Source: Ruminococcus sp.
GTDB lineage: Bacteria; Bacillota; Clostridia; Oscillospirales; Ruminococcaceae
Reading direction: 5' to 3'
Length of the DNA stretch: 7,996 nucleotides
Assembly (NCBI GenBank): GCA_003446315.1
Contig: DMBA01000012.1
Coordinates: 1 to 7,996 of the forward strand
Within the stretch, counting starts at the first letter, position 1. Each line of letters begins with the position of its first letter. The notes beneath the pieces are model-generated. The model saw nothing but the letters and a program-made list of their open reading frames with translations, was not told the DNA's origin and made no database searches. Positions 1-7,996 of the stretch are shown one piece after another. Both the position numbers and the translations under genes were made by a program.

Positions 1-27
1 GAGAGCATGAAAGTTTATCATGCTCTC
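1..27. repeat. 10-bp perfect inverted repeat inside cbiB
   Basis: Bases 1-10 (GAGAGCATGA) are the exact reverse complement of 18-27 (TCATGCTCTC), with a 7-nt loop AAGTTTA. The repeat lies in coding sequence for ESMKVYHAL and could form an RNA hairpin. The left arm begins at the window edge, so the stem may be longer. No T-run follows, so it is not an intrinsic terminator. It may be coincidental. Confidence 0.6.
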
Positions 28-657
28 GAACGAGATGACCTTACAGGATCAAGAAAAGCTGTTTCCATGATTGTAGGCAGAGACACAGATCAGCTTGATT
101 CCAACGGTATCATTCGGGCAGCAGTGGAGACCGTAGCCGAAAATACGTCAGATGGAGTTACAGCACCTTTGTTTTATATTGCTTTATTCGGTGCAATTGG
201 CGGAATTATGTATAAAGCTGTAAACACAATGGATTCAATGATTGGGTATAAGAATGAAAAATATAAAAAGCTTGGCTTTTTTGCTGCAAAACTTGATGAT
301 ATATTAAATTATATACCATCTAGAATTACAGCATATCTTATGATTATTGTATGTCCGATTCTAAAGTTAGATGCAAAAAATGCATACCGAATCTGGAAAA
401 GAGATCGCAGAAAGCATGCCAGCCCGAACTCCGCGCAAACAGAAGCTGCTTGTGCAGGTGCGCTGCATGTGCGACTTGCCGGAGATACGAGCTATTTTGG
501 TGTTCTGCACAAAAAGCCTTATATCGGTGATGATGATCGAGACATCAAACCTGATGATATTAGTACTGCGAACAAACTGATGTATCTAACTTCGATCGCC
601 ATGTTGATCCTTGCAGTTCTTTTTCGACTATTACTATTTGGAGTGATTCTCTCATGA
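1..657 (+). CDS. cbiB: Adenosylcobinamide-phosphate synthase CbiB, 5' end missing
   Basis: Membrane enzyme of late cobalamin synthesis that joins aminopropanol (or its phosphate) to cobyric acid, giving adenosylcobinamide (phosphate). The frame is open from base 1, and the ATG at 7 falls inside a conserved region, so it is not the start. The family is about 310-320 residues; 218 codons are visible, so roughly the first 100 residues lie outside. Family hallmarks seen: ALERDDL, IVGRDT, RAAVETVAENTSDGVTAPLFY, then KAVNTMDSMIGYKNEKY, and a C-terminal segment with PNSAQTEAACAGAL. Hydrophobic segments occur at the APLFYIALFGAIGG stretch, at ITAYLMIIVCPIL and at the extreme C-terminus, as expected for a polytopic protein. 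The stop overlaps the next gene's start by 4 nt (ATGA, 654-657). Family membership is secure; the exact substrate form (phosphorylated or not) is not visible. Confidence 0.94.
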   Translation, partial: ESMKVYHALERDDLTGSRKAVSMIVGRDTDQLDSNGIIRAAVETVAENTSDGVTAPLFYIALFGAIGGIMYKAVNTMDSMIGYKNEKYKKLGFFAAKLDDILNYIPSRITAYLMIIVCPILKLDAKNAYRIWKRDRRKHASPNSAQTEAACAGALHVRLAGDTSYFGVLHKKPYIGDDDRDIKPDDISTANKLMYLTSIAMLILAVLFRLLLFGVILS

Positions 658-1688
658 TACAGCCACATGGCGGTAACATCCATGATTATCCAAATACGCT
701 TGATTTTTCAGCGAACATCAATCCATTGGGCATGCCGGATTCTGTACATGAAGCGATCGTTTCTTCTGTTTCGCAATGCAATCACTATCCGGATCCGTAC
801 TGCAAACAGATTCGCAGTAAAATGTCTGCCCTGCTTCATTTTCCGGAAGATCAAATTGTATTCGGCAACGGTGCAGCCGATTTAATATACCGAATTGTAC
901 ATGCATTACGTCCCAAACATGCTTTAATATGTGCCCCTGGTTTTTCGGAGTATTCTCATGCCTTGCAGGAGGTTCATTGCGAAATTCATGAGCACTTTTT
1001 ATCATCAGAATCTGATTTCATTTTAGATCGTTCTATTTTCAACGATTTTACAAATGAAATCGAAATGATCGTCCTTTGTTCTCCAAATAATCCAACCGGT
1101 CAATTGATTTCGCAATCACTGCTTCGTGATATTTCCGAGTATTGCCGCTTACATTACATCACTTTATTATTAGATGAAAGCTTTCTTTCCTTTGTCATTT
1201 CCGGTTCTTCGAATAGTTTGCTTCCATACATTCATGAACACTGTATCATTCTCAACTCCTTTACAAAAATGTATGCTATCCCCGGTATCCGAATCGGATA
1301 TGCATTATGCGGAAGCAATTATATTGCATCGAAACTACAGCAAACAGGACAGTATTGGGCAGTATCAATTCCTGCGCAGGCAGCTGCATATGCTGCTTTG
1401 GACGAGACAGATTATGCTGTTAAGACTGCTTTATACATAGCATCAGAACGGGAATTCATGACGAAAGAATTATCAAACCACGGTATACGAGTATTTCCTT
1501 CTTCTGCAAATTATTTACTGATTTATTACGAGTCTGATTTTGCGGAAGCGATGCTAAAACAAAGCATACTGATTCGTGATTGTCAGAATTACCACGGGTT
1601 GTCAAATCAATATTATCGGATTGCAATTCGATTGCATGACGATAATCTGGCTCTTATATCCGCAATAAAGAGGTATCAAAATGGCTAG
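654..1688 (+). CDS. cobD: Threonine-phosphate decarboxylase CobD (class I/II PLP aminotransferase fold)
   Basis: A cytosolic PLP enzyme of 344 residues, predicted to decarboxylate L-threonine O-3-phosphate to (R)-1-amino-2-propanol phosphate, the linker used by CbiB next door. N-terminal CobD-type signature: HGGN at residues 5-8 and DFSANINPLG at 17-26. PLP-site features of the HisC/CobD family: GNGAAD (71-76), CSPNNPTG (142-149), LLLDES with Asp174, NSFTKMYAIPG with the Schiff-base Lys205, Arg213 in GIRIGY, and a C-terminal YRIAIR with Arg326 for substrate carboxylate or phosphate. Length is close to the roughly 360 residues of Salmonella CobD. The start at 654 is supported by GGAGTG at 640-645, 8 nt upstream, and by ATGA overlap with cbiB. 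The 3' end overlaps cobQ by 8 nt. Histidinol-phosphate aminotransferase is the main alternative, but HGGN/SANINPLG and the operon favour CobD. Unusually AT-rich for the window (one sampled row 30% GC). Confidence 0.9.
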   Translation: MIQPHGGNIHDYPNTLDFSANINPLGMPDSVHEAIVSSVSQCNHYPDPYCKQIRSKMSALLHFPEDQIVFGNGAADLIYRIVHALRPKHALICAPGFSEYSHALQEVHCEIHEHFLSSESDFILDRSIFNDFTNEIEMIVLCSPNNPTGQLISQSLLRDISEYCRLHYITLLLDESFLSFVISGSSNSLLPYIHEHCIILNSFTKMYAIPGIRIGYALCGSNYIASKLQQTGQYWAVSIPAQAAAYAALDETDYAVKTALYIASEREFMTKELSNHGIRVFPSSANYLLIYYESDFAEAMLKQSILIRDCQNYHGLSNQYYRIAIRLHDDNLALISAIKRYQNG

Positions 1689-3153
1689 ATCCATTATGAT
1701 TCAAGGTACAATGTCAAATGTAGGAAAAAGCCTCATATGTGCTGCTTTGTGCCGAATTCTTCATCAGGACGGTTATCGCTGTGCACCGTTCAAATCGCAA
1801 AATATGGCTTTGAATTCCTATATTACACCGGATGGTCTGGAGATCGGACGCGCACAGGCAATGCAGGCGGAGGCAGCAGGGATCGAGCCATCCGCTTACA
1901 TGAACCCGATCCTGCTGAAACCGACAACAAATATTGGATCTCAGGTAATTGTCAACGGCATCGCACGCGGCAATATGCGTGCTGCTGAATATTTTCTTCA
2001 TAAGACAGAGCTGATTCCGGACATTCTGCATGCATATCAAAAGCTGGATGAATATTATGATTATATTGTGATTGAAGGAGCCGGCAGTCCGGTTGAATTA
2101 AACTTAAAGCAAGATGATATTGTAAATATGGGTCTTGCAAAACTTGTTCATGCACCGGTTTTGTTGGTTGGAGACATTGATCGCGGCGGCATTTTTCCGC
2201 AGTTAATCGGTACATTATCGTTACTGGATTTACAGGAGCAAACATATGTAAAAGGACTGATCGTCAACCAATTCCGCGGCGATATTTCATTGTTTTCGGA
2301 CGGCATATCCATCCTGCAACAGAAATCCCAAAAGCCTGTATTGGGCGTAGTTCCGTACATTTCACACCATTTGGAAGATGAAGACAGCTTATCTGAAAAG
2401 CTGAAACACGGATTCGTACAGAGTATCATTGATATCGGCGTGATCCAGTTTCCGAAACTATCAAACTTCACCGATTTTGACGTATTCTCGCAGTTTCCAA
2501 ACGTTATGATCCGTTACATTTCTACGCCGGAACAACTTGGTAATCCGGATCTTCTGATTCTTCCGGGCACAAAAAGCACCATTCTTGATATGCAGTGGAT
2601 GATGCAAACAGGCTTAACACAGGCGATCAAAGCCTATGCAAGACGCGGTTTTCCGGTGTTCGGTATCTGCGGCGGATTTCAAATGCTTGGCGGTCTGATC
2701 TCCGATCCGGAACATACTGAATGCGGCGGAGAAACAGCCGGACTCGGTTTGCTTCCCGTTCAAACAGTTTTTGTGCCCACAAAAACGCAAAAGCGCGTCC
2801 GGGGAACATTCTCCGAAATCGGCGGTTTTTTCTCTTGTTTATCCGGTGCGGCGTTTGAAGGATATGAAGTACACATGGGCAAAACAGAAACAGATCCTGC
2901 ATTCGCTCTGACCGATTTAGGAGGATGTTGCTGTGGTAATGTTGCCGGCTGTTATGTGCACGGTATTTTTGACTGCGCCTTCGTTTCCGGTGCGCTTGTC
3001 AAGGCGCTTTATGAAGCCAAAGGACTCCCCTATTCTGATAACCCGATCGACCGGAAACAGCAGCGCTGTAACGAGTTGGATCATCTTGCAGATATTGTTC
3101 GTAATAATGTAGATTTGCAATCCATATACAAGATCATGGAGAATGGAATATGA
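1681..3153 (+). CDS. cobQ: Cobyric acid synthase CobQ/CbiP
   Basis: Glutamine-dependent amidotransferase that amidates side chains b, d, e and g of adenosylcobyrinic acid a,c-diamide to give cobyric acid, using ATP. 490 residues, the usual family length. The N-terminal ATP-binding (dethiobiotin synthetase-like) domain shows GTMSNVGKS (9-17), FKSQNMALNS (37-46), RAQAMQAEAAG (57-67), MNPILLKPT (74-82), IEGAGSPVEL (131-140) and GDIDRGGIF (164-172). The C-terminal GATase domain has LPGTKST (294-300), the nucleophile Cys330 in GICGGFQMLGG, YEVHMG (395-400), and the catalytic His427 in CYVHGIFD. All key residues are present, so it should be active. Start at 1681 is supported by AAAGAGG (1667-1673) with 7-nt spacing; it overlaps the cobD 3' end by 8 nt in another frame. 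The stop overlaps the cbiC start (ATGA). Confidence 0.97.
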   Translation: MARSIMIQGTMSNVGKSLICAALCRILHQDGYRCAPFKSQNMALNSYITPDGLEIGRAQAMQAEAAGIEPSAYMNPILLKPTTNIGSQVIVNGIARGNMRAAEYFLHKTELIPDILHAYQKLDEYYDYIVIEGAGSPVELNLKQDDIVNMGLAKLVHAPVLLVGDIDRGGIFPQLIGTLSLLDLQEQTYVKGLIVNQFRGDISLFSDGISILQQKSQKPVLGVVPYISHHLEDEDSLSEKLKHGFVQSIIDIGVIQFPKLSNFTDFDVFSQFPNVMIRYISTPEQLGNPDLLILPGTKSTILDMQWMMQTGLTQAIKAYARRGFPVFGICGGFQMLGGLISDPEHTECGGETAGLGLLPVQTVFVPTKTQKRVRGTFSEIGGFFSCLSGAAFEGYEVHMGKTETDPAFALTDLGGCCCGNVAGCYVHGIFDCAFVSGALVKALYEAKGLPYSDNPIDRKQQRCNELDHLADIVRNNVDLQSIYKIMENGI

Positions 3154-3788
3154 AGATTGAATATGTTTTGCCGGGTGAAATTGAGCATCGCAGTTTTGCG
3201 ATTATTGAATCAGAGCTTGATCGTGAAATACCCGAATCCGTCAAGCCGATCGTGCTGCGCGTGATTCATACAACTGCGGATTTTGAATATCTGGACACGC
3301 TGTATTTTTCGCCGCATGTGATCGAAAACGCTATGCAGGCAATTGCAGCGCATGCTGTTTTTGTGACTGATACAAATATGGCACAAGCCGGGATCAATAA
3401 AGCGGCACTTGCGCGGCACGGATGCAGCAGCATTTGTTATATGGCAGATCCGGAAATCGCAGCGAATGCGAAACAAAACGGAACAACCAGAGCTGTTGCA
3501 TCTGTTGACAAAGCATCTGCACTCAAACAGCCTGTGATCTATGCTGTCGGCAACGCACCGACAGCACTTCTGCGATTATGCACCCATATCAAACAAGGCA
3601 CTTTTCTTCCGGAGCTGGTGATCGGAGTACCGGTCGGCTTTGTAAATGTTGTCCAGTCGAAAGAAATGCTGATCGCATCCGGCATTCCGTGTATTGCTGC
3701 GCGCGGCAGAAAAGGCGGCAGCAATGTCGCAGCAGCGATTTGCAATGCGTTGTTGTATATGGCAGATCAGCGATTGCTTTCTGAGTAA
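3150..3788 (+). CDS. cbiC: Cobalt-precorrin-8 methylmutase CbiC (CobH family)
   Basis: Cytosolic enzyme that shifts the ring methyl group from C-11 to C-12, converting (cobalt-)precorrin-8 to cobyrinic acid. 212 residues, normal for the family. Recognised by ESELDREIP (20-28), RVIHTTADFEY (37-47) whose His40 matches the family's catalytic His, FVTDTNMAQAGINK in the middle, YAVGNAPTAL, LVIGVPVGFVN with QSKE following, and GRKGGSNVAAAICNALL near the C-terminus. Start at 3150 shares ATGA with the cobQ stop and has GGAG at 3138-3141, 8 nt upstream. It is the last gene of this overlapped block, and the adjacent genes supply the following step (CobQ, after a,c-diamidation). The neighbours fit the anaerobic (cobalt-early) route, though CbiC and CobH cannot be separated by motif alone. 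Confidence 0.95.
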   Translation: MKIEYVLPGEIEHRSFAIIESELDREIPESVKPIVLRVIHTTADFEYLDTLYFSPHVIENAMQAIAAHAVFVTDTNMAQAGINKAALARHGCSSICYMADPEIAANAKQNGTTRAVASVDKASALKQPVIYAVGNAPTALLRLCTHIKQGTFLPELVIGVPVGFVNVVQSKEMLIASGIPCIAARGRKGGSNVAAAICNALLYMADQRLLSE

Positions 3789-3878
3789 GACCGGAAAACA
3801 ATAAAAAACAATTCAAAACGTGACTGTATTCCTAAACTCTTTTCGGTGTGCAGCCACAAATTTACGCATTTTCTCCAA
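3789..3878. other. Non-coding gap between cbiC and the riboswitch promoter
   Basis: An AT-rich 90-nt stretch with no gene. I looked for an intrinsic terminator for the cbiC operon and found none: ACCGG near 3790 and TTTTCGGT near 3840 can pair only imperfectly across a loop of about 40 nt, with no T-run after them. Transcription from the upstream operon could therefore run into the riboswitch leader. Confidence 0.5.
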
Positions 3879-3891
3879 TTGACAATTCAAA
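3808..3891. repeat. 10-bp direct repeat pair ACAATTCAAA flanking the promoter approach
   Basis: ACAATTCAAA occurs at 3808-3817 and again at 3882-3891. The second copy overlaps the last bases of the -35 element (TTGACA, 3879-3884). The copies are 74 bp apart, about seven helical turns. In AT-rich intergenic DNA this may be chance; a regulator site is possible but unproven. Confidence 0.3.
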
Positions 3892-3907
3892 CAGAATGTG
3901 CTATAAT
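3879..3907 (+). promoter_or_regulatory. Sigma-A type promoter with extended -10 for the riboswitch operon
   Basis: Consensus -35 TTGACA at 3879-3884, a 17-bp spacer, and consensus -10 TATAAT at 3902-3907 preceded by TG at 3899-3900 (TGCTATAAT, extended -10). The start point is expected near 3914. It lies about 25 nt before the first paired bases of the cobalamin riboswitch, so the leader RNA would contain the whole aptamer. It is a very strong match, so control probably acts after initiation. Confidence 0.9.
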
Positions 3908-3913
3908 ATAGCA

Positions 3914-3925
3914 TGTTCATGAACA
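3914..3925. repeat. 12-bp perfect palindrome at the predicted transcription start
   Basis: TGTTCATGAACA reads the same on both strands and begins 7 bp after the -10 box, where the start site should be. The -10 region is also symmetric (GCTATA-A-TATAGC, 3900-3912). Position and symmetry fit an operator for a dimeric repressor, or a 5' hairpin in the transcript. No regulator gene is seen in the window. The symmetry is certain, the function is not. Confidence 0.6.
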
Positions 3926-3936
3926 AATTGAATAAT

Positions 3937-4123
3937 AGCGAACGGTGCCTTCGGTTGGAATCAATACGAAGGGTAAAAGGGAAGCAGGTGCAAATCCCGC
4001 ACGATCTCGTCACTGTAATTGCGGAGTGGAATGCAAACTGCGGGCAGACGCAGCGTCACTGATAAATCGGGAAGACGGTCATTCCATGCTGATGCATGAG
4101 TCAGGAAACCTGCCGCTTACGCT
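3937..4123 (+). promoter_or_regulatory. Cobalamin riboswitch (B12 element)
   Basis: Aptamer in the leader of the cbiK operon that senses adenosylcobalamin or related corrinoids. Conserved blocks in order: GGTGCC (3944-3949); AAAAGGGAAGCAGGTGCAAA across 3975-3994; ATCCC then CACTGT (4011-4016); CACTGATAAATCGGGAAG (4057-4074); and the B12 box GTCAGGAAACCTGCCG (4100-4115). The closing P1 stem is visible: AGCGAACGG (3937-3945) pairs with CCGCTTACGCT (4113-4123) with two one-base bulges. Length of about 190 nt is typical of the full-length class. It sits between promoter and terminator, so ligand binding should lower expression of the exported CbiK, NEAT-like protein and ABC importer genes. Outer boundaries are approximate. 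Confidence 0.96.
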
Positions 4124-4204
4124 GGTACAGAATGTTTATTCAGATCACGAGGTATTGATCGTACTGTTTCCCGACTCTCCGTCTGCGGCAGGGTCAGTAT
4201 TTCG

Positions 4205-4237
4205 ATGCCTTTTTTCGGATGAAAAAGGGCATTTTTT
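4205..4237 (+). terminator. Intrinsic terminator of the riboswitch leader
   Basis: A 12-bp stem: ATGCCTTTTTTC (4205-4216) pairs with GAAAAAGGGCAT (4221-4232) with one G-U pair, around the loop GGAT. The 3' arm runs into six T (4232-4237). It lies 82 nt after the riboswitch and 46 nt before the cbiK start, so it is the expression platform rather than the end of a gene. A possible competing pairing is CCTGCCGC (4109-4116, in the B12 box and P1) with GCGGCAGG (4185-4192), which would link aptamer folding to the terminator region. Confidence 0.92.
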
Positions 4238-4271
4238 ATGTCAAACCGTATACGATTCATACCGGTTCTCA

Positions 4272-4278
4272 AGAGAGG
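4272..4278 (+). promoter_or_regulatory. Ribosome binding site that fixes the cbiK start
   Basis: AGAGAGG at 4272-4278 lies 5 nt before ATG 4284. The same reading frame is open back to 3945 through the riboswitch and terminator, so this site decides that translation begins at 4284, exactly at a lipoprotein signal peptide. A weak hairpin (AACCGTAT 4244-4251 with ATACCGGTT 4259-4267, one bulge) ends just upstream. Confidence 0.85.
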
Positions 4279-4283
4279 AATGT

Positions 4284-5372
4284 ATGAAAATGAAAAAGAA
4301 GATTGCTATGATTTTGGGACTTGCAGTTGCGATGAGTGCAATGACAGCATGCGGCGACAACACCACCGCAGACAGCAGCGAAGCAGCAAGCAGTGTTGCG
4401 GAGTCTTCTGAGGAAAGCACAGAAGAAGCTGCTGAAGAAACGACTGCACCTGCTGAGGACAGCACGGAATCCGATTCTGAATCGGAAGCTGAAAGCAGCG
4501 AAGAAGAGGAAGCTGAGGATGAAGAAGAAGACTATACGACCGGTGATGCATCACTGGACAATGTCCGAAATCAGGATGAGATCGGCGATCAGGAACTGTT
4601 GGTGCTGAGTTTCGGAACCAGCTTCAATGACAGCCGCCGCCTGACGATCGGCGCAATTGAAGATGAACTTGCGAATGCATTTCCGGATTATGAAGTCCGC
4701 AGAGGATTCACCGCAAACATCATCATCGACCATGTCAACCGTCGTGACGGCATTCTGATTGATGATGTAGATGCAGCATTGCAGCGTGCGATCGACAACA
4801 ATGTAAAGACACTGGTTGTTCAGCCGACCCACTTGATGCACGGTCTGGAATACAATGATCTTGTCGAACAAGTCGGCAGCAAAGCAGATGCGTTTGACAA
4901 AGTTGTATTTGGTGAACCGCTTTTGAATTCTGATGATGATTTCAAGCGCGTGGAAGAGGCAATTGTAAACTGGACAAAGGAATATGACGACGGCAAGACT
5001 GCGATCTGCTTTATGGGGCACGGCACCGAAGCAGAATCAAACGAGATCTATCAGAAGATGCAGGATCTCCTGACTGCCGACGGACACAACAATTATTTTA
5101 TCGGTACCGTTGAAGCATCGCCTTCCGTTGATGATGTTCTGGCATCCGTACAGGCAGGTGATTATGAGCGTGTCATTCTGGAACCGCTGATGGTTGTTGC
5201 AGGCGATCATGCCAACAACGACATGGCTGGTGATGACGCAGATTCGTGGAAATCGGTATTTGAAGCAGCCGGTTATGATGTCACCTGTCTGCTGCGCGGA
5301 CTGGGTCAGAACGAAGACATTCGCAAGATTTATGTCGATCACGCACAGGCAGCAATTGATTCCATCCAATAA
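4284..5372 (+). CDS. cbiK: Exported lipoprotein sirohydrochlorin cobaltochelatase (CbiK type)
   Basis: CbiK inserts Co2+ into sirohydrochlorin in the anaerobic B12 pathway; here it is predicted to sit on the outer face of the membrane. 362 residues. Residues 1-22 are a lipoprotein signal (MKMKKK, hydrophobic core, MTAC with Cys23). Residues 24-85 are a Ser/Thr/Ala/Glu/Asp-rich acidic linker. The chelatase domain fills 103-362, about the size of whole Salmonella CbiK (264 residues). It shows LLVLSFGTSFNDSR (105-118), QPTHLMHGLEY with Glu189 (180-190), CFMGHGTEAESN with His246 (242-253), GTVEASPS and EPLMVVAGDHANNDMAGD with His309 (300-317). His246 and His309 match the two metal-site histidines of the family. 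First gene after the riboswitch, so B12-repressed. An exported CbiK is known in Desulfovibrio (periplasmic form). Cobalt insertion versus another tetrapyrrole metal role cannot be decided from sequence. Confidence 0.92.
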   Translation: MKMKKKIAMILGLAVAMSAMTACGDNTTADSSEAASSVAESSEESTEEAAEETTAPAEDSTESDSESEAESSEEEEAEDEEEDYTTGDASLDNVRNQDEIGDQELLVLSFGTSFNDSRRLTIGAIEDELANAFPDYEVRRGFTANIIIDHVNRRDGILIDDVDAALQRAIDNNVKTLVVQPTHLMHGLEYNDLVEQVGSKADAFDKVVFGEPLLNSDDDFKRVEEAIVNWTKEYDDGKTAICFMGHGTEAESNEIYQKMQDLLTADGHNNYFIGTVEASPSVDDVLASVQAGDYERVILEPLMVVAGDHANNDMAGDDADSWKSVFEAAGYDVTCLLRGLGQNEDIRKIYVDHAQAAIDSIQ

Positions 5373-5382
5373 TGAACATGAT

Positions 5383-5409
5383 CCGGACAGTCGCATGATG
5401 GCTGTCCGG
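5383..5409 (+). other. Intercistronic hairpin between cbiK and the NEAT-like gene
   Basis: CCGGACAG (5383-5390) pairs perfectly with CTGTCCGG (5402-5409). Inner T-G, C-G and G-T pairs can extend the stem to 11 bp with a 5-nt loop. It fills most of the 63-nt gap, is not followed by a T-run, and the next ribosome site (AGAAGGAG, 5421-5428) begins 11 nt later. It looks more like an mRNA stability or processing element, or a weak attenuator, than a terminator. Confidence 0.7.
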
Positions 5410-5435
5410 TATCCATATTTAGAAGGAGCACGAAT

Positions 5436-6389
5436 ATGAAACATTATTTTCCGGCATTATTATTACTTGCAGCATGTCTGCTGACAGGCTGCGGCAGCAC
5501 AACCGAATCGAATTCAGTCGCTGATTCTGATATTTCGAGTGTATCGGATACAGTGATCTCTGACGAAACAACGCAGCCGGCGGAATCTGAAACAGAACCC
5601 GCAGAAACAGAACCGGCGCTTGCGGTTGCATCCGGCGATGATGTGATTGCAGCGGATGCAGTTGGATATGAGGGCATGGAAGCCGTTACCGCAGATGCGC
5701 TGCAAGACGGTGTTTACAGCATTTCAGTCGATTCCAGTTCATCCATGTTCCGCATCACTGATTGCCTGCTTACAGTCGAAAACGGCAAAATGACGGCAAA
5801 GATGACGATGAGCGGAGCCGGATATGAAGCCTTATACAGCGGCACGGCAGCAGATGCAGCAGCAGCACCGGAGTCCGAGCGTATCCCGTTCACAGAAGAA
5901 AACGATGTGCATTGCTTTACCTTTCCGGTCGCAGCACTGGATCAGGAGATCGACTGTGCAGCATTCAGTACCAAAAAGCAGCTTTGGTATGACCGAAAGC
6001 TGGTCTTCCGTGCAGATTCCCTGCCGGATCACGCATTCAAGGAACGCGAGATGGTTACCGCAGAAACGCTGGAGCTTGCAGACGGCGAATACACGATCGC
6101 AGTGACATTGGAAGGCGGATCGGGCAAAGCGAGTGTGCAGTCCCCTGCCAAACTGACCGTTTCCGGCGGAGAAGCAACAGCCGAGCTGATCTGGAGCAGT
6201 AACAAATATGATTACATGCGGGTAAACGATGTGCAGTATCTGCCGACTGATACCACCGAATTCTCCGTGTTTGAGATTCCGGTTACAGAATTTGACCGCA
6301 AGCTGAATGTCACAGCCGATACAACAGCGATGAGCACGCCGCACGAGATCGAATATACATTATATTTCGATTCATCGTCTATTGAATGA
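5436..6389 (+). CDS. Lipoprotein with two NEAT-like (iron/heme transport-associated type) domains
   Basis: 317 residues, predicted surface lipoprotein: signal MKHYFPALLLLAACLLTGC with Cys19, then a Thr/Glu/Ser/Pro-rich spacer to about residue 85. Two beta-rich repeats follow, about 89-196 and 213-316. Each opens with LxDGxYxIxV (LQDGVYSISV at 89-98; LADGEYTIAV at 214-223), continues with a LTVxxG strand (112-117; 240-244), a FxIPV or FTFPV strand, and ends FRADSL or FDSSSI. This order matches NEAT domains, which bind heme in Isd systems. The terminal YxxxY heme-ligand motif is altered: YDRKL (185-189) and HEIEY (303-307). Start at 5436 has AGAAGGAG with 7-nt spacing. Position between cbiK and a substrate-binding protein suggests it captures a tetrapyrrole, corrinoid or metal and passes it to the importer. 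NEAT assignment is by eye, so moderate; ligand unknown. Confidence 0.7.
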   Translation: MKHYFPALLLLAACLLTGCGSTTESNSVADSDISSVSDTVISDETTQPAESETEPAETEPALAVASGDDVIAADAVGYEGMEAVTADALQDGVYSISVDSSSSMFRITDCLLTVENGKMTAKMTMSGAGYEALYSGTAADAAAAPESERIPFTEENDVHCFTFPVAALDQEIDCAAFSTKKQLWYDRKLVFRADSLPDHAFKEREMVTAETLELADGEYTIAVTLEGGSGKASVQSPAKLTVSGGEATAELIWSSNKYDYMRVNDVQYLPTDTTEFSVFEIPVTEFDRKLNVTADTTAMSTPHEIEYTLYFDSSSIE

Positions 6390-7507
6390 TGAAGCGTATT
6401 TTCTTGCTGCTTCCGCTGATTCTGCTGACCGGATGCAGTCAGCAAAATCAGAAAACGGAAACCGTATCCGAAACGGTTGAAACGATGCCGCTGGAATATG
6501 CAGAGCAGTTTTCGGTTGATTTCTGTGCAGACGGCACCTCGGTCATTCATATCGGAGAGGATGCGTTTCTGCTGGTACCGGAGCATCAAACAGCGCCGGC
6601 GCAAACCGAAATGACCGTAATCCAGCAGCCCGTATCCTGTGTTTACGCAGCGGCATCCTCTGCGATGGATCTGTTTGATGCGATCGGCTGTCTGGATCGT
6701 GTTCAGCTCACATCAACGGATCGGGACGGATGGAGTTTGCCGCATATCCGGCAGGCAATGGATGACGGTGCATTGACATTCATCGGCAAATACAGCACGC
6801 CGGATTATGAAGCCCTGATGGAAACAGACTGTGACCTTGCGGTTGAATCGACTATGATCTATCACAGTCCTGCGGTAAAAGAGAAGATCGAGGCTCTCGG
6901 CATACCGGTTTTGACAGAGCGATCCAGTTACGAATCGCATCCGCTTGGTCGAATGGAATGGATGAAACTATATGGTTTGATCCTTGGCAAATACGAAACA
7001 TCCGCTGCTGTTTTTTCAGAAAAAACGGCAGGATTTGCAGCCTTGACAGAACAGGAGATCCCGCCGGAATCCCGTAAAACCTGTGCATTTTTCAGCATTA
7101 CGCCGTCCGGAACAGTCAACATCCGCAAACCGGGCGATTACATTGCAAAGATGATAGATTTTGCAGGCGGGACATATATATTTACGCCGGAAAATCTGCA
7201 TGTCGATGAGAATGCGTTATCGACAATGAGCATTCAAATGGAGTCGTTTTATGAAACGGCAAAAAATGCAGATATCCTGATCTACAACAGCACCATTGAA
7301 GGACAATTGTCGCATATCAGTGATCTGATTGATAAAAGTGACGTATTTGCTGATTTTCGTGCAGTACAAAACGGGGATGTCTGGTGTACGGAACAAAACA
7401 CATTCCAGCAAACGACCGGAGCCGCGGATATGATCGCCGATCTGCACCGGATCTTCACCGATGAAAGCGCAGATCATTTGACATATCTGTACAAAATCCC
7501 GGAATGA
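6386..7507 (+). CDS. ABC transporter substrate-binding lipoprotein (FepB/BtuF-type, TroA fold)
   Basis: 373 residues. Lipoprotein signal MMKRIFLLLPLILLTGC with Cys17. A segment of about 60 residues (18-78) precedes the binding core, including FSVDFCADGTSVIHIG and FLLVPEH, longer than in minimal BtuF proteins. The core resembles type III (siderophore, heme, B12) binding proteins: VSCVYAAASSAMDLFDAIGCLDRV (83-106), FIGKYSTPDYEALMETDCDLAVEST, PLGRMEWMKLYGLILGK (186-202), RKPGDYIAKMIDFAGG (247-262), NADILIYNST (294-303) and DVWCTEQNTFQQTTG (331-345). The permease gene follows after 10 nt, so it should deliver ligand to that permease. ATGATG at 6386 overlaps the upstream stop by 4 nt and there is no clear ribosome site, so translation is probably coupled; the second ATG (6389) is equally possible. 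Ligand (corrinoid, heme, siderophore) not identifiable from motifs; the riboswitch points to a B12-related one. Confidence 0.88.
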   Translation: MMKRIFLLLPLILLTGCSQQNQKTETVSETVETMPLEYAEQFSVDFCADGTSVIHIGEDAFLLVPEHQTAPAQTEMTVIQQPVSCVYAAASSAMDLFDAIGCLDRVQLTSTDRDGWSLPHIRQAMDDGALTFIGKYSTPDYEALMETDCDLAVESTMIYHSPAVKEKIEALGIPVLTERSSYESHPLGRMEWMKLYGLILGKYETSAAVFSEKTAGFAALTEQEIPPESRKTCAFFSITPSGTVNIRKPGDYIAKMIDFAGGTYIFTPENLHVDENALSTMSIQMESFYETAKNADILIYNSTIEGQLSHISDLIDKSDVFADFRAVQNGDVWCTEQNTFQQTTGAADMIADLHRIFTDESADHLTYLYKIPE

Positions 7508-7517
7508 GGAGCAAACG

Positions 7518-7996
7518 ATGAAAAACAGAGCGCTGCGCTGGACAATTTGCTTTCTGTTGCTGCTTGGATTGTCCGGCATATTATTCACGGCAAATCTCAC
7601 GATCGGCAGCAGCAGCATGACCGGATCGGATGCATTTTCGGTATTGTTCGGCAAATCTGCGGATGCAGCAGCCCGCCGCATCATAGCAGACATTCGCCTG
7701 CCCCGTACCATAGCCGCACTGATACTGGGCGGCAGTTTATCGGTATCCGGATTTTTGCTCCAGAGTTTTTTCCGCAATCCGATCGCAGGGCCGTTTGTAC
7801 TGGGCATTTCATCCGGTGCGAAACTGACCGTTGCACTGACCATGATCGCAGCATTACAGACAGGCTTCACCATGCATGCAGCCTCTATGGTCACGGCAGC
7901 TTTTTTCGGCTCGATCGGGTGCATGCTGCTGATTCTGTTGATCTCGCCGAAGGTAAAAAACATGGCACAGCTTATCATAACAGGTGTTATGATCGG
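7518..7996 (+). CDS. FecCD/BtuC-family ABC permease, 3' end missing
   Basis: The frame starts at ATG 7518 and is open to the window end (159 complete codons; the family is about 330 residues, so roughly half is seen). It has GAGGAG at 7506-7511, 6 nt before the ATG, overlapping the upstream stop. The first membrane segment is at residues 8-26, then a loop, then the family hallmark RLPRTIAALILGGSLSVSG (60-78) and QSFFRNPIAGPFVLGISSGA (82-101). A further hydrophobic segment (about 102-113) and one at 121-142 follow. The common NPLADPYLLGVSSGA motif reads NPIAGPFVLGISSGA here, a conservative variant. It should form the membrane channel for the preceding binding protein; an ATPase gene would be expected just past the edge. 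FecCD membership is secure, cargo unknown. Confidence 0.95.
   Translation, partial: MKNRALRWTICFLLLLGLSGILFTANLTIGSSSMTGSDAFSVLFGKSADAAARRIIADIRLPRTIAALILGGSLSVSGFLLQSFFRNPIAGPFVLGISSGAKLTVALTMIAALQTGFTMHAASMVTAAFFGSIGCMLLILLISPKVKNMAQLIITGVMI

Follow-up and report, generated by a model that had tools for sequence, protein, structure and literature searches.

Bacteria that keep the genes for the corrin ring of cobalamin (B12) and miss the early tetrapyrrole genes have been predicted to salvage tetrapyrrole precursors; they are mostly Firmicutes and often host-associated (PMC6461909). The accessible part of that study (Shelton et al. 2019, PMC6461909) reports dependence on 5-aminolevulinic acid (ALA) tested in three species and names no importer, and the excerpt available of a review puts the precorrin-2 salvager class at 0.6% (PMC8123684). 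Here we describe a candidate for such an importer, accompanied by a chelatase and encoded in a 7,996-nucleotide stretch of Ruminococcus sp. (assembly GCA_003446315.1, contig DMBA01000012.1, positions 1 to 7,996 of the forward strand; hereafter the window). A leader with a B12 riboswitch precedes four genes, all on the + strand, for an exported CbiK lipoprotein, a lipoprotein with two NEAT domains, a substrate-binding lipoprotein (SBP) and a FecCD permease. Judged from sequence comparisons, this operon probably encodes a surface system which would take up a scavenged tetrapyrrole, predicted to gain cobalt outside the cell, and feed it into the corrin-ring pathway.

Parts of this arrangement are known from other systems. 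The B12 importer BtuFCD shares the PF01497 and PF01032 families, an ATPase and a B12 riboswitch with the operon, whereas the operon has the extra CbiK and NEAT partners and its host genomes carry corrin-ring genes. Compared to the Isd heme relay of Gram-positives, also built on NEAT domains, the operon adds a chelatase, a B12 riboswitch, cbi neighbors and altered ligand residues. The Desulfovibrio structure PDB 2xvx, which we take to be that of the exported CbiKP, is a CbiK-family match of the window CbiK (E 3.4e-32), and Desulfovibrio is said, in work by Lobo from 2008, to possess a second, cytosolic CbiK. A B12 element controls cbiK-cbiL and btuCDF in Desulfovibrio, and deltaproteobacteria with cbiK are described as lacking known cobalt importers; in its accessible text this source mentions no NEAT proteins and does not specify which cbiK copy, exported or not, the element governs (PMC545781). 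A further solved relative of the window CbiK is PDB 9b86, the ‘Heme-binding protein FetB’ (E 2.2e-42), that is, IhtB/FetB of Porphyromonas gingivalis, discussed in the available excerpts as a heme-iron protein with no B12 role drawn. We presume that it is exported. P. gingivalis is stated to lack the steps to precorrin-2, at least in the accessible part of PMC6461909. Within the open-licensed PMC literature, no importer for the early B12 ring or early tetrapyrroles was found, nor any paper uniting three of the four terms CbiK, lipoprotein, NEAT and cobalamin riboswitch, and a search on CbtJKL as a known cobalt ATP-binding cassette (ABC) system gave nothing of use. The novelty would appear to lie in the combination of an exported cobaltochelatase with capture by a NEAT relay and an importer resembling BtuFCD, the whole tied to B12 synthesis. 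A rumen operational taxonomic unit (OTU), Bt-995, credited with none of five tetrapyrrole steps and eight of ten corrin steps, is filed as a cobinamide salvager in the available text of PMC12654859 and may be of the operon type.

Fifty genomes that carry the operon, chosen for longer contigs and isolates, were audited among those contributing the best 80 of 475 related loci (one genome per species). CbiD, representing corrin synthesis, is present in all 50, as is CbiK, and in 44 of them the exported copy is the sole CbiK; all matches to the CbiX family fall on a CbiK. HemC is without a match in 39 genomes and present in 11, while CobA falls below its cut-off in 37 and above it in 13. Those 13 are identical to the genomes with a strong Met8-type match (>90 bits), and Met8/CysG was on this count rejected as a hidden chelatase. 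The cobalt importer component CbiM is strong (>180 bits) in two genomes and matches at E 1e-3 in eight. HemC, CobA, strong Met8, strong CbiM and a second CbiK are all missing in 37/50 genomes (33/50 if weak partial CbiM matches are counted). Eight of the nine named strains (seven Ruminococcus flavefaciens, Brotaphodocola catenula and Lachnospiraceae YSB2008) show no HemC either, and incomplete metagenome-assembled genomes alone therefore do not explain the gap. By their CbiD, HemC and CobA counts the relatives have the salvager profile of corrin genes present and early genes absent (HemB and HemL were not searched). Most operon genomes thus appear to keep the corrin pathway and seem unable to build its ring, and in the 37 genomes the only recognised early cobalt chelatase is one with a predicted signal peptide, i.e. 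exported. Taken together, the retention of corrin genes, the missing ring genes and the export of the sole chelatase are most simply read as a ring that comes from outside and is metalated there; cobalt insertion is placed outside the cell because most operon genomes show no second chelatase that could be recognised. Ring uptake is well supported by genomics. The proposal of the sequence-only reading, that an external tetrapyrrole is captured, has metal inserted outside the cell and is imported, gains genomic support.

The chelatase gene itself (4284..5372, +) encodes a PF06180 domain (266 bits against a cut-off of 26.2). The residues His145 and His207 of Salmonella CbiK, given as catalytic in the accessible part of PMC7689651, correspond in the alignment to His246 (5019-5021) and His309 (5208-5210) of the window protein, and both histidines are kept in 12 of 12 aligned CbiK rows. 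The score against the NCBIfam equivalog NF047852 is 223 bits, below the 400-bit cut-off. A predicted signal peptide and lipobox place the protein outside the cytosol, and the lipobox pattern recurs in CbiK at 73 of 78 loci, with a variant in L017 and L071 and the remaining three lying near a contig start. The window CbiK is a predicted exported member of the cobalt-inserting class II chelatase family. Other architectures occur among its relatives. Six proteins of about 580-620 amino acids (P0123, P0146, P0189, P0196, P0203 and P0207) carry two CbiK domains in tandem behind an apparent lipoprotein signal; these six were aligned, and many further relatives of similar length are among the matches listed. 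In other Clostridia (L132, L151, L154 and L162) a cytosolic CbiK is fused to a CbiL-like domain in proteins of 510-548 amino acids, which unites the chelatase and the next enzyme within a single protein.

The sequence-only reading had tied its proposal to conservation of the four-gene order and riboswitch across Clostridia and to the co-occurrence of the four genes in other genomes, and both were found. The order CbiK-NEAT-SBP-permease is kept in 73/80 loci. Among the other seven, L056 and L077 start at a contig start just before the NEAT gene, L028, L043, L055 and L075 reach a contig end, and L073 misses the permease match. For 73 loci the sequence extends 700 nucleotides or more upstream of CbiK; a pattern search placed a B12-box there in 69 of them, and Infernal recovered a riboswitch in three of the four negative loci, giving 72/73 with only L040 without. 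In the window, the leader comprises a sigma-70 type promoter (3879..3907, +; 12/12 consensus positions, with TG ahead of the second hexamer), the cobalamin riboswitch aptamer (RF00174; 3928..4131, +; 89.9 bits, E 7.9e-22) and an intrinsic terminator (4204..4233, +), presumed to be the expression platform of the riboswitch. In divergent Clostridia (14 regions fetched), a riboswitch precedes the module in all eight regions scanned, and in seven of these eight (L113-L116 and L118-L120) the module has cbiC and cbiD as neighbors no more than a few kilobases away; the divergent region L117 holds CbiK, NEAT1 and CbiD only. Here the components are also found fused, as CbiK-NEAT1 (L120, L124) and NEAT2-SBP (L120), with NEAT1 and NEAT2 likewise joined. 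Fusions linking each neighbor in turn suggest a putative hand-over chain from CbiK over NEAT1 and NEAT2 to the SBP.

The NEAT lipoprotein (5436..6389, +) holds NEAT1 at about residues 76-203 (nt 5661-6044, +) and NEAT2 at about residues 208-316 (nt 6057-6383, +). PF05031 reaches 32.5 bits on it, just under the gathering score of 32.8; its relatives number in the thousands (3998 of 7998 scored candidates) and many of them carry the family, and the fold is that of a NEAT protein, with NEAT2 closest to heme-bound IsdX1. Heme NEAT domains carry a YxxxY ligand motif. On inspection of the alignment by eye, NEAT2 has HxxxY in the window and YxxxY in the relative P0059, and no such motif was seen in NEAT1. 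Large NEAT-bearing frames (1211 and 1073 amino acids) occur at L125 and L126, in genomes (G265, G051) with CbiD and only weak CbiK matches. The SBP gene (6386..7507, +; PF01497) follows, and a phmmer search of the PDB gave no match for either its product or the NEAT protein. The FecCD permease gene (7518..7996, +; PF01032) is cut by the window end; on the 159 amino acids in the window, its best NCBIfam score is that of BtuC, 71.7 bits against a cut-off of 334. Together with a class III binding protein and an ATPase, seen in relatives only, it makes up the set of components of a BtuFCD-type importer, and the ATPase lies 3′ of the permease in 73/80 loci. The ATPases of L016 (12867-13976) and L003 (13116-14246) bear a C-terminal extension of about 110 amino acids with a glycine-rich motif, while those of the same module in L114-L116 are short (253-257 amino acids) and without it. 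After the ATPase, L016 (13963-14919) and R. flavefaciens-like relatives have an EamA-like gene, named by eye, often followed by a two-component system; an adjacent exporter for a self-made cobaltophore was rejected as a general feature, as this EamA-type gene is confined to the R. flavefaciens-like group. In L010 an ArsR-like regulator and a heavy-metal-binding-like protein, both named by eye, lie 3′ of the operon ATPase.

A wider sample of 243 Clostridia genomes, in which export of CbiK was judged by eye from N-termini (G011 being assigned via its operon locus L015), points in the same direction. CbiD is found in 72 of these genomes and a clear NEAT-like protein in 15, 14 of which are also CbiD-positive. 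CbiM is present in 2 of 15 genomes with exported CbiK against 29 of 35 with cytosolic CbiK only (Fisher p 6e-6, ignoring kinship), and HemC in 4 of 15 against 29 of 35 (p 2e-4, likewise ignoring kinship). These counts omit NEAT matches with E above 1e-10 (17/32 genomes; 16 of the 17 best matches cover only the first ~95 model columns, and that of G243 covers 203-300), CbiM matches weaker than E 1e-20 (7/79 genomes), HemC matches in 2/59 genomes (G071 and G216, neither CbiD-positive) and CbiK matches in 22/72 genomes that are not CbiD-positive or not full length. The window-type genome G007 was read in depth, using 2,226,423 bases plus locus L010, or 96% of the 2,331,892 bases of its contigs C1-C34, C34 being taken as the last contig. 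It has CbiA, CbiC, CbiD, CbiE/T, CbiF, CbiG, CbiH and CbiJ. Within the portion read, HemA, HemC, Met8 and cytosolic CbiK have no match of their own; the CobA and HemD queries recover nothing beyond CbiF and CbiH, and those with cytosolic CbiK lead back to the exported copy alone.

The pathway proposed would begin when B12 is low and the riboswitch lets transcription run past the terminator. A sirohydrochlorin-type ring, shed by neighboring cells, would be bound at the cell surface, where the exported CbiK would put Co(II) into it. The cobalt-ring would then be handed from NEAT1 to NEAT2 and to the binding lipoprotein, in the order suggested by the fusions, and the FecCD permease and its ATPase would bring it into the cell, where cytosolic Cbi enzymes would finish B12. 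In this way a single operon may do the work otherwise shared among the enzymes that make the ring, a chelatase in the cytosol and the cobalt importer CbiMNQO.

Several observations weigh against this pathway or narrow it. The SBP structure matches its entire class, which takes in proteins that bind siderophores or heme as well as others, and names no ligand; L078 has no ATPase in the stretch available, and L073 has no permease match though its sequence continues. CbiL, the methylase acting after cobalt insertion, was not found in the 96% of G007 that was read. CbiL adjoins CbiD in R. flavefaciens (L174, L176). Entry at cobalt-sirohydrochlorin consequently fits the window clade poorly; there the imported ring may already be C20-methylated, or CbiL may be unrecognised or in the missing part. 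In the audit, the 11 HemC-positive genomes all have Met8 and CobA, and five have a second CbiK; the operon is thus not limited to ring-less cells, and in these genomes it would be an extra route. Weak matches to NAD_binding_7, the broad Met8-type family, pass the Pfam cut-off in 48/50 operon genomes, and CbiM passes its own cut-off in 6/50. Among the wider Clostridia, 11 of 22 CbiD-positive, HemC-negative genomes are without an exported CbiK, which makes import with exported CbiK one route among others. An exported CbiK occurs together with CbiM in G134 and G135, and with a second CbiK of cytosolic length in G140, G148 and G248. On a CbiK tree made by a quick method the exported state needs only three changes, so that the HemC and CbiM links rest on two to three independent events, and independent pairs were too scarce for a phylogenetic pair test to reach significance.

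The alternatives raised by the sequence-only reading, plain B12 uptake and heme use, fit the gene absences less well than the surface pathway. Ordinary corrinoid uptake is unlikely in our judgment. The FecCD system would import B12, cobinamide or late corrinoids, with the exported CbiK as a corrinoid- or cobalt-binding accessory and ring and cobalt obtained by unknown routes. The B12 riboswitch in front of the operon suits this, as does the BtuC score of the permease, far under the cut-off and on a fragment as it is; moreover, the sole B12-box found by pattern in the portion of G007 read precedes the operon, which may therefore be the only B12-regulated importer of this genome. It leaves unexplained, however, that the sole CbiK is exported in so many genomes, that genomes retain CbiD without showing HemC and CobA, and that CbiK and NEAT1 are fused. 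Salvage of finished corrinoids also needs no CbiD, yet nearly all NEAT-positive Clostridia have it. Distinctly unlikely is cobalt acquisition alone, where the exported CbiK would trap cobalt, possibly with a ring that the cell makes and exports as a metallophore, and the importer would feed a cytosolic ring. The scarcity of CbiM, in the audited genomes and in the wider Clostridia with exported CbiK, is in line with such a role, which suits the 11 operon genomes having HemC and Met8. The 39 without HemC would not make the ring, though; cobalt transporters besides CbiM were not searched.

Heme-iron use is improbable: NEAT would bind heme and the exported CbiK would strip its iron to feed iron metabolism, as proposed for P. 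gingivalis IhtB/FetB, itself termed a putative ferrochelatase/reverse ferrochelatase in the available excerpts. The likeness of NEAT2 to heme-bound IsdX1 and of the window CbiK to FetB speaks for it, whereas B12 riboswitch control, the location near cbiC-cbiD, the HxxxY of NEAT2 in place of the heme-type YxxxY and the missing motif of NEAT1 do not. Dual location, in which an internal start would let the gene yield CbiK in the cytosol too and the lipoprotein would be incidental, is highly improbable, as an in-frame start codon accompanied by a Shine-Dalgarno-like stretch close to where the domain begins occurs in 14 of the 73 lipobox loci (five at one position, the positions otherwise differing) but not in the other 59, Glu-rich linker codons mimic such stretches and the window CbiK linker (residues 24-103) has no Met; it was rejected as not conserved across loci.

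The 5′ part of the window is the tail of a cobalamin operon, likewise on the + strand. It comprises cbiB with its 5′ end cut (1..657; PF03186), a class I/II aminotransferase that is CobC/CobD-like (654..1688; PF00155, the Cob name being inferred from its place among cbi genes), the cobyric acid synthase gene cbiP (1681..3153; PF07685 and PF13500) and cbiC, encoding precorrin-8X methylmutase (3150..3788; PF02570). In the layout downstream, the sequence-only reading was borne out: promoter, cobalamin riboswitch and terminator all lie upstream of the CbiK gene, and the four co-directional genes are real.

More tentatively, and with slightly less than even confidence, we propose that the operon represents an extracellular start of B12 synthesis, in which a surface cobaltochelatase metalates a community-supplied isobacteriochlorin that a heme-type NEAT relay passes on to a FecCD importer. 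In many Clostridia of the gut and rumen, the operon would then take the place of making the ring, of a chelatase in the cytosol and of an importer for cobalt, and the exported CbiKs in Desulfovibrio and in Porphyromonas would be related versions of this strategy rather than iron or heme enzymes. If so, exported CbiK proteins elsewhere would have to be reinterpreted. The operon supplies the predicted precursor salvagers with a concrete candidate importer and a candidate extracellular chelatase, and as cultured R. flavefaciens strains have the operon and no HemC was found in them, the idea is directly testable. If it is true, members of gut and rumen communities would be expected to share an early tetrapyrrole by cross-feeding.

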